63,254 nt of DNA from an uncultured Bacteroidota bacterium (GTDB lineage Bacteria > Bacteroidota > Bacteroidia > Flavobacteriales > Flavobacteriaceae), in the NCBI GenBank assembly GCA_902590705.1, contig CACIXU010000003.1, positions 136,574 through 199,827 of the forward strand, read 5' to 3'. The position numbers and the translations under genes are program-made. The stretch's first letter is position 1, and each line of letters begins with the position of its first letter. The notes under the pieces were generated by a model. The model worked only from the letters and a program-made list of their open reading frames with translations, was not told the DNA's origin and did not search any database. This document shows, in pieces, positions 27,015-35,917 of the stretch.

Positions 27015-28097
27015 TTATCCGTTTATTACCTTCTGTTGATGATTTATTGACTCTTGATGAATAGATTTAAATACTCGACTTATAAAATCCTCACTTAATC
27101 CTCTTTGTTCACCCTCAATTTTCATTGTATTTAGTATTTGACTCCAACGTTTATTTTGTAAAACTGCGACATTATTATCTTTTTTAATTTTACCAATAGA
27201 GGCCGCTATTTTCATACGTTTACCCAAAGCATCTAAAAGCAATTGATCTGTATCATCAATTTGTTCACGGTAAGTTTCTAGCTGTGTCTGGTAACCAGCC
27301 TCATCAGTAGTCTTCTTCCGAATTTTCAAAGATTTCATTATCTCAGTAAGACGCTTAGGGGTTACCTGTTGTTTAGCATCACTCCAAGCATTATCTGGAT
27401 CCCAGTGTGTTTCAATCATTAAACCGTCAAAGTTCAGGTCTAAAGCCCTTTGACTCAAGTCAAAAATCAAATCCCTGCGTCCTGCAATATGAGAAGGATC
27501 ACAGATCAATGGAATATCAGGAAACTTATTTTGAAATTCCACTGCTATTTGCCATTCGGGATTATTACGATATTTAGATTTATCATAGGTTGAAAATCCT
27601 CTATGTATAACTCCTAAATTTTTGATATCTGCAGTGTACAATCTTTCCAGACCACCCATCCATAATGCTAAATCAGGGTTGACAGGATTTTTTACTAATA
27701 CAATTTTATCTGTTCCACAAAGTGCATCAGCGATTTCCTGAATTATAAATGGACTAACAGTCGTTCGAGCACCAATCCAAAGAATATCTATATCCGCCTC
27801 CAAGGCTAATTTAACATGGTCTTTATTGGCAACCTCAGTAGTAGTCATTAAACCAGTTTCTTCTTTCACTTTTTTAAGCCAGTTTAAACCGATTGCTCCA
27901 ACACCTTCAAACATTCCCGGACGGGTTCTGGGTTTCCATATTCCCGCACGATATACCGTTACATCGGTGTCCTTTAATTCATGTGCGATTTTTAAAACCT
28001 GCTCCTCGGTTTCCGCACTACAAGGGCCTGCTATAACAAGGGGATGATCTAATCCAAAGTTATCTAGCCAAGTTCTCATTTCTTTACTGTTTTCCAT
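27015..28097 (-). CDS. Bifunctional DAHP synthase / chorismate mutase
   Basis: 360 residues. Residues 1 to about 255 form a type I-beta DAHP synthase (first shikimate step): VIAGPCSAETEEQVL, YRAGIWKPRTRPGMFEG, LVKNPVNPDLALW, CDPSHIAGRR. The remaining part is an AroQ-type chorismate mutase (REQIDDTDQLLLDALGKRMKIA). The fusion is known in Bacteroidetes. Last gene of the attenuated Phe/Tyr operon, so the entry step and the chorismate branch are controlled together with the terminal steps. Confidence 0.95.
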   Translation of the reverse strand: MENSKEMRTWLDNFGLDHPLVIAGPCSAETEEQVLKIAHELKDTDVTVYRAGIWKPRTRPGMFEGVGAIGLNWLKKVKEETGLMTTTEVANKDHVKLALEADIDILWIGARTTVSPFIIQEIADALCGTDKIVLVKNPVNPDLALWMGGLERLYTADIKNLGVIHRGFSTYDKSKYRNNPEWQIAVEFQNKFPDIPLICDPSHIAGRRDLIFDLSQRALDLNFDGLMIETHWDPDNAWSDAKQQVTPKRLTEIMKSLKIRKKTTDEAGYQTQLETYREQIDDTDQLLLDALGKRMKIAASIGKIKKDNNVAVLQNKRWSQILNTMKIEGEQRGLSEDFISRVFKSIHQESINHQQKVING

Positions 28098-28102
28098 TTT
28101 TA

Positions 28103-28969
28103 TTAATTGTTTTTTGTGGTTTTGGCAATGCCGTCTAAAATCTGATCAATAGTATTAATAATTTTAATTTTATCGTACAATTCATCGTACTTTTCGTTAT
28201 CAAGAAGTGATTTAAAATTTTTCAAGTTATCTATATATTCTTTAAGTGTTTCACTGATGTTATCTTTATTCTGTTTAAAAATTGGGATCCACATGCTTGG
28301 GGAACTTTTTGCAAGGCGAACAGTAGAAGCAAACCCACTGCCTGCCATATCGAAAATAGTGGCTTGGTCTTTTTCTTTTTCCATTACAGTTTTCCCCAAC
28401 ATATATGAACTAATATGAGATAAATGAGAAACATATGCAATGTGCTGATCGTGCGCAACTGGATCCATTTCCCTTAAATTCATGCCTATTTTTTTAAACC
28501 AGTCTTGTGCCCATTCTAATAAATCTGGACGAGTTTTTTGTGTTTCACAGAGAATTTGAATTTTATTAAAAAATAAATCAGGCAATGCAGCTTCAGGTCC
28601 AGAGTATTCTGTTCCTGCAATTGGATGAGTTGCGAGAAATTGACCCCTTTTGGAATGAAGGGCTACAGCTTGACATATAGGATATTTTGTAGAGCCAAAA
28701 TCGATTACTAAACAGTTGTCATTGACTTCGTCAAGTAAATCAATCAATTGATTCATCGCAATATCTACAGGAACTGCCAACAAAATTATATCCATAGATT
28801 TTATGTCATTTTTTTGTAATTCAAAATCTATTAATCCCATTTTAAGGGACTTTTTAAGGTTGGCCTCGCTTTTATTACTTCCGTAAATTTCAGAATCTGG
28901 GATATGTTCACGTGCAGATAAAGCAAGTGATCCACCAATTAATCCAACACCAATGATACCTATTTTCAT
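28103..28969 (-). CDS. tyrA: Prephenate dehydrogenase
   Basis: NAD-dependent oxidative decarboxylation of prephenate to 4-hydroxyphenylpyruvate, the tyrosine branch. 288 residues. N-terminal Rossmann motif IGIIGVGLIGGSLAL; LLAVPVDIAM; the catalytic His region ATHPIAGTEYSGPEAA and AYVSHLSHISSYML. No regulatory ACT domain is seen. Start overlaps the upstream aminotransferase stop by ATGA. Confidence 0.95.
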   Translation of the reverse strand: MKIGIIGVGLIGGSLALSAREHIPDSEIYGSNKSEANLKKSLKMGLIDFELQKNDIKSMDIILLAVPVDIAMNQLIDLLDEVNDNCLVIDFGSTKYPICQAVALHSKRGQFLATHPIAGTEYSGPEAALPDLFFNKIQILCETQKTRPDLLEWAQDWFKKIGMNLREMDPVAHDQHIAYVSHLSHISSYMLGKTVMEKEKDQATIFDMAGSGFASTVRLAKSSPSMWIPIFKQNKDNISETLKEYIDNLKNFKSLLDNEKYDELYDKIKIINTIDQILDGIAKTTKNN

Positions 28970-30114
28970 TTTTTTGTTATTCGTTTAATGGCTTTTCTAA
29001 TCTGATCTTCCTTTACACAAAGAGAAAAGCGGATATAGCCTTCACCCAGACTGCCAAAGATACTTCCCGGGGTAATAAATAGATTGTATTTTTGTAGAAT
29101 TTGCTCAATTACTTCGACCGAACTTTTATTAGTATTTTTAAGTTTAGCCCAAACAAATAGCCCACTACTATGAAGATCAAATTCTGTATTTAAAAGTGCC
29201 GCTAATTTAAAAATCAACTTTCTTCTTTTGGTGTAAGTATCATTCAATTGTTTAAACCAGACTTCGTTAATACTAAACGCAGCAATTGCCCCCTTTTGGA
29301 TTCCTAAAAACATTCCAGAATCCATGTTACTTTTCACCTTCAACAGTGCTTTAATATTTTCTTTATTACCTAAAACCATTCCTACCCGCCAACCAGCCAT
29401 ATTAAAAGATTTACTTAAAGAGTTTAATTCCATACCCACATCCATTGCCCCTGGCACCGAAAGCATACTCTGGGGGCGATCAGTAAGGATAAAACTGTAA
29501 GGATTGTCATTTACCAAAAGAATCTCTCTCTTTCTCACCCAATCAATTAATTTTCTGAATGTTTCTTGTTTAGCATTAGCTCCAGTTGGCATGTTAGGAT
29601 AATTGACCCACATTATTTTAACACCATCCAAGTCCATTTGATTTAATGCCTCTAGGTCAGGTTGCCAATCATTTTCAGGAATAAGATCATAAAAAACAGG
29701 GGTGGCTTGCAAAAGTCTAGTTACTGATTGGTAAGTTGGATAACCAGGGTTAGGAATCAAAACCTTATCTCCAGGATTTAAAAAGGCCATTGAAATATGC
29801 ATTATACCTTCTTTTGATCCCAAAAGGGGTAAAATTTCACTATCGGGATTTGTGGTAACGTTATAATGCTTTAGGTAAAATTTGGCAATTGCAATTCTTA
29901 GCTCTGGAATTCCCTGATAACTTTGGTACTGATGAACTTTGGGATTGCTAAAACTTTCTTTTAACGCGGTGACTACGTCAGGATGAGCAGGTAAATCGGG
30001 GCTTCCAATACCCATATTTATTATCGGTTTACCTTTAGCAATCATAGCAGACACCTCTCTCAATTTCTTGGAGAAGTAATATTCTTTAACTGTATCTAAT
30101 CTTTTTGCCATCAT
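28966..30114 (-). CDS. Aminotransferase of the Phe/Tyr operon
   Basis: 382 residues, class I/II PLP enzyme: MGIGSPDLPAHPDVV, LGSKEGIMH, VNYPNMPTGANA, VNDNPYSF and the Schiff-base lysine in ELNSLSKSFNMAGWRVG. It resembles LL-diaminopimelate-type aminotransferases, but its position between pheA and tyrA strongly suggests it transaminates phenylpyruvate and 4-hydroxyphenylpyruvate (inference). Overlaps pheA by ATGA; the next codon is also ATG. Confidence 0.9.
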   Translation of the reverse strand: MMAKRLDTVKEYYFSKKLREVSAMIAKGKPIINMGIGSPDLPAHPDVVTALKESFSNPKVHQYQSYQGIPELRIAIAKFYLKHYNVTTNPDSEILPLLGSKEGIMHISMAFLNPGDKVLIPNPGYPTYQSVTRLLQATPVFYDLIPENDWQPDLEALNQMDLDGVKIMWVNYPNMPTGANAKQETFRKLIDWVRKREILLVNDNPYSFILTDRPQSMLSVPGAMDVGMELNSLSKSFNMAGWRVGMVLGNKENIKALLKVKSNMDSGMFLGIQKGAIAAFSINEVWFKQLNDTYTKRRKLIFKLAALLNTEFDLHSSGLFVWAKLKNTNKSSVEVIEQILQKYNLFITPGSIFGSLGEGYIRFSLCVKEDQIRKAIKRITKK

Positions 30115-30935
30115 GATTTATCAGATTTATATTCACCTAACACTTTAAATGAGATTGCCATTATTTTCAACAACGATTTCGCTTTAAAATAATCCGTTGA
30201 ATCATCAAAAGTAACATCTACAAAAAAGGCATACTTACCAGGCGTTTTGATCACAGGTAAGGATTGTATTTTGGTCAAATTTAGATTGCAATCACTCACT
30301 ACATTTAGTGCCGTTGCTAAACTTCCACGTTTATGATCTAACACAAATTTCCAAGCAGCCTTGTTTATATTATGTTGCCGTTCAGGGATTTTCTTTTGAA
30401 CTATTACAAAACGTGTAACATTATTTTTTATAGTCTGAATAGATTTACTTATAATATTTAATCCATAAATCTCAGCTGCCCAAACGCCTGCAATAGCTCC
30501 ACGACTCTTAATTTTTTTTTCACTTATTTTCATCGCCTCTTCTGCAGTATCATGACTTTCAACCAACTTGATGTAGGGATAATCCTGGAAAAAATTTTTA
30601 CACTGTAATATAGCCATAGGGTGAGAATGAACTTCTTCGATATCAGTTATCGATTGCCCTGGAAGAGCCATCAAATTATGCTGAATACTGAGACAAAACT
30701 CACCTACAATGACTAATTCGTATTGGTCTAACAATGCATAGTTAGGCAATATAGATCCTGCAATTGAGTTTTCAATCGCCATGACTGCCTGATCACAATC
30801 ACCCGCTAAAACAGCTTGTGATAAATCATCAAATGTACTACACTCGACAAGAGATAGGTTACTATCATAATATTCACTTACCACCTGATGATGGAAAGAC
30901 CCTTTAATTCCCTGTATGGCTATTTTTCTTATCAT
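30111..30935 (-). CDS. pheA: Prephenate dehydratase
   Basis: Converts prephenate to phenylpyruvate. 274 residues: catalytic domain with AIQGIKGSFHHQV, ENSIAGSILPNY and the TRF motif (NNVTRFVIV), then a C-terminal ACT domain with RGSLATALNVVSDCNLNLTKIQSLP, the ESRP-like Phe-binding region. First structural gene of the operon; its ATG lies 6 nt after the T-run of a terminator, so transcription into it depends on the attenuator upstream. Confidence 0.96.
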   Translation of the reverse strand: MIRKIAIQGIKGSFHHQVVSEYYDSNLSLVECSTFDDLSQAVLAGDCDQAVMAIENSIAGSILPNYALLDQYELVIVGEFCLSIQHNLMALPGQSITDIEEVHSHPMAILQCKNFFQDYPYIKLVESHDTAEEAMKISEKKIKSRGAIAGVWAAEIYGLNIISKSIQTIKNNVTRFVIVQKKIPERQHNINKAAWKFVLDHKRGSLATALNVVSDCNLNLTKIQSLPVIKTPGKYAFFVDVTFDDSTDYFKAKSLLKIMAISFKVLGEYKSDKS

Positions 30936-30941
30936 TTCCTC

Positions 30942-30971
30942 AAAAAAAAAGTCCCGATAAATCAGGACTTT
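30942..30971 (-). terminator. Attenuator terminator before pheA
   Basis: On the minus strand a 10-bp stem AAAGTCCTGA / TCGGGACTTT (one G-U pair) with loop TTTA, followed by nine T. It ends 6 nt before the pheA ATG, so if it forms it stops transcription of the whole operon. Its 5' arm can instead pair with GGACTTT near the end of the leader ORF (30999-31005). Confidence 0.88.
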
Positions 30972-31005
30972 CTTTGTTAACTACAACTAAAATATTACAA
31001 AGTCC
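30965..31005 (-). promoter_or_regulatory. Antiterminator pairing in the Phe/Tyr leader
   Basis: Minus-strand GGACTTT at 31005-30999 (leader codons 20-22) is a perfect complement of AAAGTCC at 30971-30965, the 5' arm of the terminator. The two helices exclude each other. A ribosome finishing the leader at 30995 would cover the first segment and let the terminator form; one stalled at the Tyr/Phe codons leaves it free. Confidence 0.75.
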
Positions 31006-31063
31006 CTATTGCTTCTAAATAGAAGTAAAATAAGGAGGCGTAATATGTATTTATATAATTCAT
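30995..31063 (-). CDS. Tyr/Phe-rich leader peptide of the aromatic operon
   Basis: Short ORF of 22 codons plus TAA, too small for usual gene calling. Tyr is at codons 3, 7, 8, 13 and 15 and Phe at 12 and 14, seven aromatic residues of 22; the core reads TYYASLFYFYLE. It starts 14 nt after an exact -7 box and ends 23 nt before the terminator stem. Composition, position and overlap with the antiterminator arm make it a ribosome-stalling sensor for charged tRNA-Tyr and tRNA-Phe. Confidence 0.85.
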   Translation of the reverse strand: MNYINTYYASLFYFYLEAIGTL

Positions 31064-31077
31064 TTTAAATATCTCGA

Positions 31078-31108
31078 CAAAAGTAAGATAGGTTTTAACA
31101 AAAACAAA
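31078..31108 (-). promoter_or_regulatory. Promoter of the Phe/Tyr operon leader
   Basis: Minus strand: -33 TTTG at 31108-31105, 19-nt spacer, exact -7 box TACTTTTG at 31085-31078. Both elements and spacing match the Bacteroidetes sigma-A consensus. Expected transcript start is a few nt before the leader ATG at 31063. Confidence 0.72.
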
Positions 31109-33284: not shown

Positions 33285-34556
33285 TTAGACTGCTTTAAGT
33301 GCTTGGTCCAAATCTTCTTTTAAGTCTTCAATATTTTCAATTCCAACTGAGATTCTAACCAATTCGGAGGAAACTCCTGTACTTCTTTGCTCTTCTTCAT
33401 TTAACTGAGAATGAGTAGTGCTGGATGGATGAATAATTAAAGATTTAGTGTCACCAATATTTGCTAATAAAGCAAAAATCTTTGTGGACTCAGCAACTTT
33501 CTTTGCAGCCTCAAAGCCTTTTTTAAGTCCAAAAGTAACTATACCGCTTTTTCCATTTGGTAAGTACTTATCAGCTAAATTATGGTATTTAGACGAATTT
33601 AAACCTGGATAATTAACCCAACTTACTTCTTCTCTTGATGATAACCACTCGGCTAGTTCTAAAGCATTCTGAGAATGTTTTTGCATCCGCACCTCAAGAG
33701 TTTCTAGGCCTTGAATGACTTGAAAACTATTTAGCGGACTAGGTGCGCTACCTAGATCTCTTAAGCCCTCTACTCTAACTCTTGCGATAAAAGCAATTGG
33801 ACCTAAAGCTTCATGATACTTCAGGCCATGGTAAGATGGCGAAGGCTCAGTAAATTCAGGGAAATTTCCATTTGAGTAATCAAAAGTTCCAGCATCAATA
33901 ATAATTCCACCCAGAGTAGTTCCATTACCAGTAATGTACTTGGTCAATGAATGGATAACAATATTGGCTCCATATTTAATTGGATTCAGTAAAGCAGGAG
34001 TTGCAATAGTGTTGTCGACAATGAATGGTACTTTAGCCACTTTTGCATGATCACTGATTCCTTTTAAATCAATCACATCCAATTTTGGATTGCCTAAAGA
34101 TTCAGCAAAAAATGCTCTTGTATTTGGCTCAACTGCTTTTGCAAAATTCTCTGTATCATCAGGGTCAACAAAAGTTGTAGTGATTCCAAAACGGGGAAGG
34201 GTATTACTTAACATGTTATAAGTTCCTCCATAAAGGCTGTTAGATGCTACAATATGATCTCCAGACTTTAATAAGGTCATAAAAGTAGTAGCAATAGCTG
34301 CTGTTCCAGAGGCGGTTGCCACTGCAGCGACGCCTCCTTCTAAGGCAGCCAAACGTTGTTCAAGAACATCATTAGTGGGGTTATTTAATCTGGTATAAAT
34401 ATACCCTGCCTCTGTAAGCGCAAATAAATTGGCAGCTTGATCAGAATCATCAAATACATAGGATGTGGATTGATAAATCGGAACAGCTCTTGTTCCTTGT
34501 GTTTTTTTTACATCATGCCCAGCATGAAGTGCGTTAGTTGCTAATTTTAAACTCAT
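33285..34556 (-). CDS. metY: O-acetylhomoserine sulfhydrylase
   Basis: PLP enzyme making homocysteine from O-acetylhomoserine and sulfide. 423 residues, Cys/Met metabolism family: [10 protein letters not shown] opening, [34 protein letters not shown], and the Schiff-base lysine in [34 protein letters not shown] is the family C-terminal motif. Start overlaps the metK stop by ATGA. Confidence 0.94.
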
Positions 34557-35809
34557 AATTCAAAAGTGTTTTTAATTTTATTTAAATAATCTAATTTTTC
34601 CCAAGTAAAAAGCTCTACTTTTTTTTCTACTCTCCCACTGTAGGGAGAGTTAAAAACCTTGGTGATTTTTTGAGGTGATCTCCCCATATGACCATAAGCA
34701 GCTGTTTCAAGATAGATTGGGTTTCTAAGTTTAAGTCTTTGTTCAATTGCGTAGGGGCGCAGATCAAAAATCTGACTTACCTTTTCCGCAATTGCTACAT
34801 CACTTAATGACACTTTCGCAGTATTGAAAGTGTTTACATTTATTGATGTTGGTGCTACCACACCTATTGCATAACTAAGTTGGACTAATATTTCTTTTGC
34901 AACACCGGCAGCTACAATATTTTTAGCGATATGACGAGCCGCATAAGCCGCTGATCGATCAACTTTACTTGGGTCTTTTCCACTGAAAGCACCTCCACCG
35001 TGGGCTCCTTTTCCTCCATAAGTATCAACGATAATTTTCCTGCCTGTTAAACCAGTATCCCCATGAGGACCTCCAATGACAAATTTCCCTGTAGGGTTTA
35101 TATGATAGACGATATCATCATTAAAAAGCTTTTGTATATGCAATGGCTCCTTGCGTATAACGTTTTTAACAACTATATTAACAATATCACTTTTAATTTT
35201 TTTCAAGACTTTCTCATTACTCTTATCAAATGGGTCGTGTTGAGTAGAAACTACAATTGTATCAATTCTGATAGGCTGGTGGTTGTCATCGTATTCTATG
35301 GTAACTTGGGACTTTGCATCGGGACGTAAGTAGGGAATTTGCCTACCATCCCTTCTTAAATCGGCGAGCTCAATCAAAATTTTATGAGATAGATCTAATG
35401 AAAGAGGAATATGGTTATCAGTTTCGTCTGTAGCATAGCCAAACATTATACCCTGATCACCTGCTCCTTGTTCTTCTTTATTATCTCGATCGACCCCTCT
35501 ATTAATGTCTTTAGATTGCTCGTGTATTAAAGAAATAATCCCACATGAATTTCCACTAAACTGATATTCATCTTTAGTATATCCTATATTATTAATTGTA
35601 TCCCTAGCTATCTGTTGAACATCAAGATATGTACTACTTTTAACCTCTCCTGCAAGTACCACTTGACCAGTAGTTACAAGAGTTTCGCAAGCAACTTTGC
35701 TTTCGGGATCAAAAGCAATAAAATTGTCCAGTAATGCGTCACTGATTTGATCAGAAACTTTGTCTGGATGACCTTCGCTTACAGATTCAGAAGTAAACAA
35801 GTATGGCAT
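34553..35809 (-). CDS. metK: S-adenosylmethionine synthetase
   Basis: Makes SAM from methionine and ATP. 418 residues. ATP site [29 protein letters not shown] (family signature 1); [19 protein letters not shown] (signature 2). First gene of the metK-metY-metX operon, so the operon runs from homoserine to SAM. A SAM-II-like aptamer and an exact -7 box lie directly upstream. Confidence 0.97.
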
Positions 35810-35838: not shown

Positions 35839-35859
35839 AAAATAAAGTCTTAAAGCAAT

Positions 35860-35909
35860 ACTGCTTTAGCATTTTTTTAAGAGGTTGCAATCAGTCAAAT
35901 CCTTCCTCG
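35860..35909 (-). promoter_or_regulatory. SAM-II-like riboswitch aptamer upstream of metK
   Basis: The minus-strand RNA has the features I recall for the SAM-II class: stem GAGG/CCTC (35908-35905 with 35884-35881) around a loop reading GGATTTGACTGATTGCAA, then an A-rich linker and AAATGCTAAA. The GATTT, ATTGCAA and GCTAAA blocks are the conserved core of SAM-II (and the related SAM-V). It begins within about 10 nt of the likely transcript start and serves a Met/SAM operon. A covariance-model search is needed to settle the class. Confidence 0.72.
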
Positions 35910-35917
35910 TTTGAGCG

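Follow-up and report, generated by a model that had tools for sequence, protein, structure and literature searches.

The aromatic amino acid operon on the minus strand of this DNA is preceded by a leader that is very probably a ribosome-mediated transcription attenuator, built on three helices (1:2, 2:3 and 3:4) and measuring charged tRNA-Tyr and tRNA-Phe. The window, by which we mean the whole stretch of 63,254 nucleotides analysed, has at this position a short open reading frame (ORF) belonging to a set of leaders with an in-frame bias toward Tyr and Phe codons, three helices with matched changes, and a conserved placement of the aromatic codons relative to those helices. An earlier note on the same DNA had interpreted the site as a Tyr/Phe attenuator, and this interpretation is supported. 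The claim is thus correct and has good support, and the switch it describes is of a familiar, ordinary type.

Table 1. Features of the leader and of the operon behind it, in window coordinates.
Feature	Position	Strand	Description	Basis
-33-type promoter element	31105..31108	-	TTTG; predicted	read from sequence
-7-type promoter element	31078..31085	-	TACTTTTG; predicted	read from sequence
Leader ORF	30995..31063	-	MNYINTYYASLFYFYLEAIGTL, then stop; 22 codons, 5 Tyr + 2 Phe	sequence, translation
Region 1	31029..31046	-	codons 6-12; partner region 2 (protector/pause hairpin 1:2)	fold
Region 2	30992..31010	-	last leader codons + stop; core GGGACTTT (31006-30999) = antiterminator strand	pairing, stall model
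Region 3	30962..30971	-	terminator 5' arm AAAGTCCTGA; partner region 2 or region 4	sequence, 8-mers
Region 4 + T-tract	30942..30957	-	terminator 3' arm TCGGGACTTT, then T	sequence, fold
pheA	30111..30935	-	prephenate dehydratase	Pfam PDT, E 6.8e-56
Class I/II aminotransferase	28966..30114	-	script label aspC	Pfam Aminotran_1_2, E 1e-59
tyrA	28103..28969	-	prephenate dehydrogenase	Pfam PDH_N + PDH_C
DAHPS/CM	27015..28097	-	DAHP synthase fused to chorismate mutase	Pfam DAHP_synth_1 + CM_2

Both elements of the promoter described in the earlier note are found on the minus strand, judged against the promoter consensus. They are separated by 19 nt, and 14 nt lie between the end of TACTTTTG and the leader ATG. 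The TTTG is identical in nine aligned relatives. The pattern TTG-N17-23-TAnnTT[TA][GA] occurs within 80 nt upstream of 90 of 123 family leaders, compared with 101 of 2460 mononucleotide shuffles, and 117 of 124 leaders have a -7-like box no more than 60 nt from the ATG.

The leader is a short ORF lying between this promoter and the first structural gene. Seven of its 22 codons are Tyr or Phe, with Tyr at positions 3, 7, 8, 13 and 15 and Phe at 12 and 14, and these control codons match the Phe/Tyr operon that follows. Between leader and operon is a predicted intrinsic terminator with a 10-bp stem (30971-30962 with 30957-30948) and a TTTA loop; after GGGAC comes a run of nine T that ends at 30942, leaving 6 nt before the pheA start at 30935. 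Direct reading confirms the earlier note on the leader and on the terminator alike. The terminator is absent from the list returned by a generic scan, although sequence and fold both show the hairpin clearly; terminators were called by folding and by a rule of our own. The leader region folds with -35.2 kcal/mol (z -4.87), and none of 200 shuffles was as good. The alternative pairing that had been claimed, of GGACTTT (31005-30999) with AAAGTCC (30971-30965) in the terminator 5' arm, is perfect, and a G.U pair extends it to eight. Terminator and antiterminator of the earlier note both stand; the third helix, 1:2, with which the standard arrangement is complete, had been overlooked.

The genes behind the leader are closely packed, with 4-nt overlaps between pheA and the aminotransferase gene and between the latter and tyrA, and a short gap before DAHPS/CM. 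PheA has only the Pfam PDT domain, at residues 5-182, and no match to an ACT domain at E 0.001 or better; feedback inhibition of PheA by Phe is therefore uncertain. In 128 of 130 family genomes DAHPS/CM is on the strand of pheA and begins no more than 4.5 kb downstream of the pheA start; in ten of the 128 it follows pheA without room for either middle gene. The two exceptions are G023 and a genome in which a contig end interrupts the locus. Among 80 loci from named records the full order pheA, aminotransferase, tyrA, DAHPS/CM is found in 77, and the first two or three genes in the other three.

The layout of the leader suggests how it would work. When both charged tRNAs are plentiful, the ribosome would reach the leader stop and cover region 2, so that regions 3 and 4 pair and transcription ends before pheA. 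If Tyr or Phe tRNA is scarce, the ribosome would stall at an aromatic codon among codons 7-15. Its body would break helix 1:2 with its front edge just short of region 2, which would then grab region 3 before region 4 is made, giving read-through into pheA, the aminotransferase gene, tyrA and DAHPS/CM. On a leader without a ribosome, 1:2 would form and hold the antiterminator strand, and the terminator would win. We infer that termination does occur here in the cell, that the supply of Tyr and Phe alters read-through, and that the ribosome and the polymerase are coupled at this site.

This scheme was modelled by folding the window leader with a ribosome covering it to 14 nt past the first A-site base. 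With the modelled ribosome stalled at Tyr7, Tyr8, Phe12, Tyr13, Phe14 or Tyr15 the best fold contains 2:3, in agreement with the claim that a stall at codons 7-15 frees the antiterminator, and with the ribosome at the stop codon region 2 is covered, as had also been proposed. Helix 1:2 remains in the modelled stall at Tyr3, which thus falls outside the antitermination zone. Across 124 family leaders the zone contains 1119 of 1186 aromatic codons (94%) but 788 of 1690 others (47%), a contrast that is partly one of layout because the aromatic run always precedes region 2. The aromatic share exceeds that of other codons in all 124. Of Trp codons 84/85 lie in the zone; the stop codon lies there in 0/124. 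In 98 of 124 leaders even the start codon belongs to the zone, and therefore only its 3' edge is informative.

At that edge the result depends on where the front of the ribosome is placed. With a front edge at +11, the zone takes in the codon that closes the longest aromatic run in 124 leaders; at +14 it does so in 117, and at +17 in only 13 of the 124. The second codon after this one falls in the zone in 13 leaders at +11 and in none at +14. Measured from the first base of the codon that ends the aromatic run, region 2 begins after 12-13 nt in 98 of the 124 and after 2 to 21 nt overall, where region 2 was set by pairing and not by distance from the codon. The middle half of its starts spans 12 to 13 nt measured from this codon, versus -20 to -15 measured from the stop. 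A distance of 12-15 nt to the ribosome front is usual. The codons are thus placed such that a stall would free the antiterminator, a reading that hinges on the assumed front edge.

The earlier note had proposed comparing relatives. Across the family sample this comparison shows conservation of the leader and of its aromatic codons, and also of the alternative helices, with matched changes. pheA is present in 130 of 149 family genomes (129 of 148 genera). The rule applied was an ORF of 8-45 codons followed within 90 nt by a terminator, in up to 500 nt before pheA. It finds a leader in 124 of the 130, all with 6 to 10 Tyr/Phe per 10 codons, and inspection of the six misses (L054, L092, G013, G128, G023 and G035) brings the number to 128. 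L054 and L092 are leaders by eye, the L054 contig starting inside the leader, and in G013 and G128 the leader terminator ends 0.5 and 0.9 kb before pheA. There is no leader before pheA in G035, where the upstream sequence is 379 nt only, and none in G023, where pheA is split from DAHPS/CM; from the latter we take it that the leader goes with the operon. At loci L311 and L312 about 0.9 and 0.5 kb of DNA separate the attenuator from pheA, and the pheA-proximal part looks repeat-rich. Among 80 named records, mostly Flavobacterium, ORF and terminator are found in all 80, with at least 6 Tyr/Phe in 79; the single record below 6 contains N letters.

In 19 family genomes there is no match to pheA, and 17 of these have some DAHPS-like match. 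We examined 16 of the 17, omitting G079 for its weak match. In 15 of the 16 the sequence examined before DAHPS/CM has no pheA, aminotransferase gene or tyrA, and in L301, at a contig end, a piece of tyrA precedes DAHPS/CM. No leader of this pattern was found in these 16 genomes, of which four offered short stretches (L298, L301, L305 and L308). A weak match to the rule in L302 (42 codons, 60 nt spacing) was judged unrelated.

Could the ORF be there by chance, next to a terminator that is constitutive or belongs to the upstream gene, with no regulation at all? AT-rich DNA readily yields Tyr and Phe codons, and a chance ORF with a terminator does occur, in 16 of 130 reverse complements and 19 of 650 dinucleotide shuffles when no aromatic threshold is applied. 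At a threshold of at least 6 Tyr/Phe per 10 codons these controls fall to 0/130 and 1/650, with 2/650 shuffles at 5 or more. Within the window itself, 20 of 484 tiles of 520 nt on both strands have some small ORF with a terminator, and the only one with at least 5 Tyr/Phe in 10 codons is that containing this leader. The upstream neighbor, by eye an ABC transporter ATPase gene, is divergent and therefore sends no transcript along this strand into the leader terminator. The helices and the codon placement are moreover conserved. The aromatic leader with its terminator is not a product of chance, and we regard the explanation without regulation as very unlikely.

The coding frame of the leaders carries the bias. 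In 124 leaders Tyr and Phe make up 38% of codons in frame versus 12% and 18% out of frame, and the two other frames contain 163 and 223 stops. The peptides themselves drift. Six near relatives, with PheA 72-95% identical, have rather different ones, for example MIYNNTYYTFFFYFYSEAVGAL and MNIKNIYYIPFYFYIDVERTL, although aromatic run, promoter boxes and terminator all persist (N letters mask the leader of one of the six). This bears on the proposal that the leader makes a functional small peptide, or feeds ribosomes to pheA by reinitiation. Reinitiation from leader genes near structural genes has been proposed, with a peak of distances in Bacteroidetes, in the portion of PMC4833913 available. 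Here, however, aromatic content stays while the peptide changes, a terminator stands between the two ORFs, and the distance from terminator to pheA ranges from 6 to 343 nt across the 124 leaders. We consider a function of this kind extremely improbable.

Each of the three helices shows matched changes, in statistics that treat related genomes as independent and ignore kinship. In helix 3:4 each of the eight core pairs is standard in 114 to 124 of the 124 leaders, with changes on both sides at every position. Helix 2:3 has a mean of -12.4 kcal/mol with its own pairing, compared with -9.5 when region 3 is taken from other genomes and -7.9 for codon-shuffled leaders, and the own partner is better than the mean of the others in 119 of 124. 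The test is weaker for single leaders: the own partner has a median rank of 0.16, many foreign regions 3 pairing equally well, and only 79 of 124 beat 95% of their own codon shuffles. A MAFFT alignment of 29 of the 124 leaders, chosen greedily by dissimilarity, aligns regions 3 and 4 but gives region 2 no single register, and anchored 8-mers were therefore used to count pairs. Ungapped 8-mers of 2:3 form 6.64 of 8 pairs with the own partner and 6.20 with others, a small gap, the own being better in 105 of 124. Of the 124 leaders, 66 form at least 7 pairs, and the outermost positions, 1 and 8, are paired in only 62 and 51; these counts are inflated, since region 2 was positioned by best pairing. 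Position 5 of region 3 illustrates its double pairing. With region 2 it forms T-A in 68 leaders, C-G in 53 and T-G in 3, and with region 4 C-G in 53, T-A in 36 and T-G in 35 (n = 124 for both). Helix 1:2 has at least 5 pairs in 119 of 124 leaders and averages -15.6 kcal/mol, versus -11.3 with partners from other genomes, the own being better in 107 of 124; against codon shuffles the median z is -2.33, with z below -1.65 in 87 of 124. This supports a mutually exclusive antiterminator conserved with matched changes, more weakly so by the ungapped 8-mers and with kinship ignored.

In other phyla, T-boxes and riboswitches upstream of aromatic genes likewise work through terminator/antiterminator pairs, and an RNA that bound uncharged tRNA or the free amino acid would make the ORF incidental. 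Searching the whole window with Rfam at the gathering threshold gave only SAM-II and two tRNAs, and hence no family, T-box included, at this site. What is conserved is the in-frame aromatic run with short helices, and the alignment of 29 of the 124 leaders contains no conserved aptamer-like core. We give a T-box or amino-acid riboswitch very little credence. The Rfam amino-acid leader families, such as Phe_leader and Trp_leader, likewise include none that matches the site at gathering score. This lowers the likelihood that the leader belongs to one of the curated leader families; it does not lower that of the attenuation mechanism. The SAM-II riboswitch (75 bits, 35856-35914, minus strand) lies upstream of an ORF resembling SAM synthetase (34553-35809), after which come two ORFs that by eye resemble metY and metX.

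The same genome has comparable leaders before other amino acid operons. Its trpE is preceded by MRYKIEDISWWNDLI (translated by eye), with Trp codons and a terminator after it, and its hisG by MILLNVHTHLLTFAQMR, with His codons and again a terminator. Of 14 trpE loci, counting that of the window's genome (20 loci less six weak matches), 12 have a Trp-containing ORF with a terminator before trpE, and a His-containing one precedes hisG in 13 of 15 relatives' loci; for both, the script picked the ORF richest in Trp or His, and the counts have no shuffled baseline. Judging by these leaders, amino acid operons in this lineage may commonly be controlled by leader attenuation. They also bear on the idea that a protein, TRAP-like or of ribosomal-protein type, chooses between the helices, translation mattering little. 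The helices alone could serve such a switch. It would leave unexplained the aromatic codons in frame, their 12-13 nt spacing to region 2, and the Trp and His leaders at trpE and hisG, and we hold it to be highly improbable.

The description of the leader as one for Tyr and Phe holds for the window, where no Trp codon occurs among the 22. The earlier note overlooked the Trp codon found in 84 of 124 family leaders, in most cases immediately ahead of the final aromatic run. The 124 leaders together have 85 TGG in frame versus 9 and 15 out of frame; in the named records only 5 of 80 leaders have Trp. Reading of Trp would make sense because DAHP synthase feeds all three amino acids. By an eye tally no link was seen between leader Trp and a second or third DAHPS-like match (16 of 24, versus 84 of 124 overall), in genomes with a leader found by the rule, where the extra matches need not be DAHP synthases.

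Beyond the sample described so far we inspected 48 further loci, taken from the best 30 of 56 matching genomes in the order and the best 30 of 102 in the phylum, some shared or already in the sample, a survey in which distant families are under-sampled. An aromatic leader is present at 13 of 13 loci from the same family, four of them in genomes already counted. Other families of the order gave 4/5 (f15, three with only 5 Tyr/Phe per 10), 2/3 (f2) and 0/8 (f16). Other orders of the class gave 3/3 (f17), 3/3 (f18), 2/2 (f19), 1/3 (f22) and 0/1 (f23), and families elsewhere in the phylum 1/1 (f28), 1/1 (f31), 0/3 (f35), 0/1 (f42) and 0/1 (f26). All eight f16 loci (L149, L150, L152-L156 and L158) keep pheA without leader and terminator in genomes of 0.6 Mb, a size which suggests endosymbionts that lost the control. 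An aromatic-rich small ORF without a rule-level terminator precedes pheA at L151 (f2), L173 (f23) and L153 (f16), and control might operate otherwise at L173 and L151. Two loci of the phylum outside the class, L162 and L167, have a Bacteroidia-like pheA (44-45% identity) together with an aromatic leader and terminator, which may reflect transfer or deep ancestry. A wider proposition has about an even chance of being right: that a leader found across much of the class Bacteroidia senses Tyr and Phe together, and in many genera also Trp, to set DAHP synthase, the shared entry enzyme, and both the Phe and Tyr branches, with a ruler that puts the antiterminator at the front of a ribosome on the last aromatic codon.

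The textbook account of attenuation rests on Proteobacteria, and Bacteroidota ribosomes largely initiate without the usual Shine-Dalgarno pairing. If the present reading is true, close coupling of ribosome and polymerase also holds in Bacteroidota, and the 124 leaders provide a ready ruler for ribosome position.

The earlier note regarded a leader of this kind in a flavobacterium as little described, a remark to be qualified by prior art (PMC1173090 and PMC9723704, each in the part available). In the first (2005, its Table 7) a putative attenuator is placed before pheA > hisHb > aroAIbeta-aroQ > tyrA of Bacteroides thetaiotaomicron. That operon is from the same phylum, with nearly the same gene set and a predicted attenuator ahead of it; there, unlike in the window, DAHPS-CM precedes tyrA, and the available part of the paper gives no leader peptide, codons or conservation. 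The second (2021), on Flavobacterium psychrophilum, reports strong clues for leader-peptide attenuation before amino acid operons and a conserved 5' element of pheA in other Flavobacteriaceae genera, without an Rfam hit. Gene and family are those of the window, whereas the codons, the helices and Trp are not named in the portion available, unlike in the present description. Small ORFs in 5' UTRs of B. thetaiotaomicron have been called reminiscent of leader peptides (PMC7366714, in part). In the available section of PMC2965389 (2010) the authors knew of no leader-peptide system shown outside Proteobacteria and Actinobacteria, to which they add Firmicutes. In the open-licence PMC literature searched, as far as its text was available, nothing was found that states the codons or helices for this pheA element in Bacteroidota. 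Vitreschak 2004 and Lopatovskaya 2010 may cover Bacteroidetes attenuators.

The pheA and trp attenuators of Escherichia coli likewise have a leader ORF with control codons, alternative helices and a terminator before the first gene. The likeness considered here is one of design. The window leader differs in reading Tyr and Phe together, with Trp too in many relatives, in standing before an operon that holds both branches as well as DAHP synthase, and in having its antiterminator strand inside the last leader codons. The enteric ilv and thr leaders similarly let one leader read several amino acids that share a pathway; their codons are branched-chain or Thr/Ile, whereas those of the window leader are aromatic.
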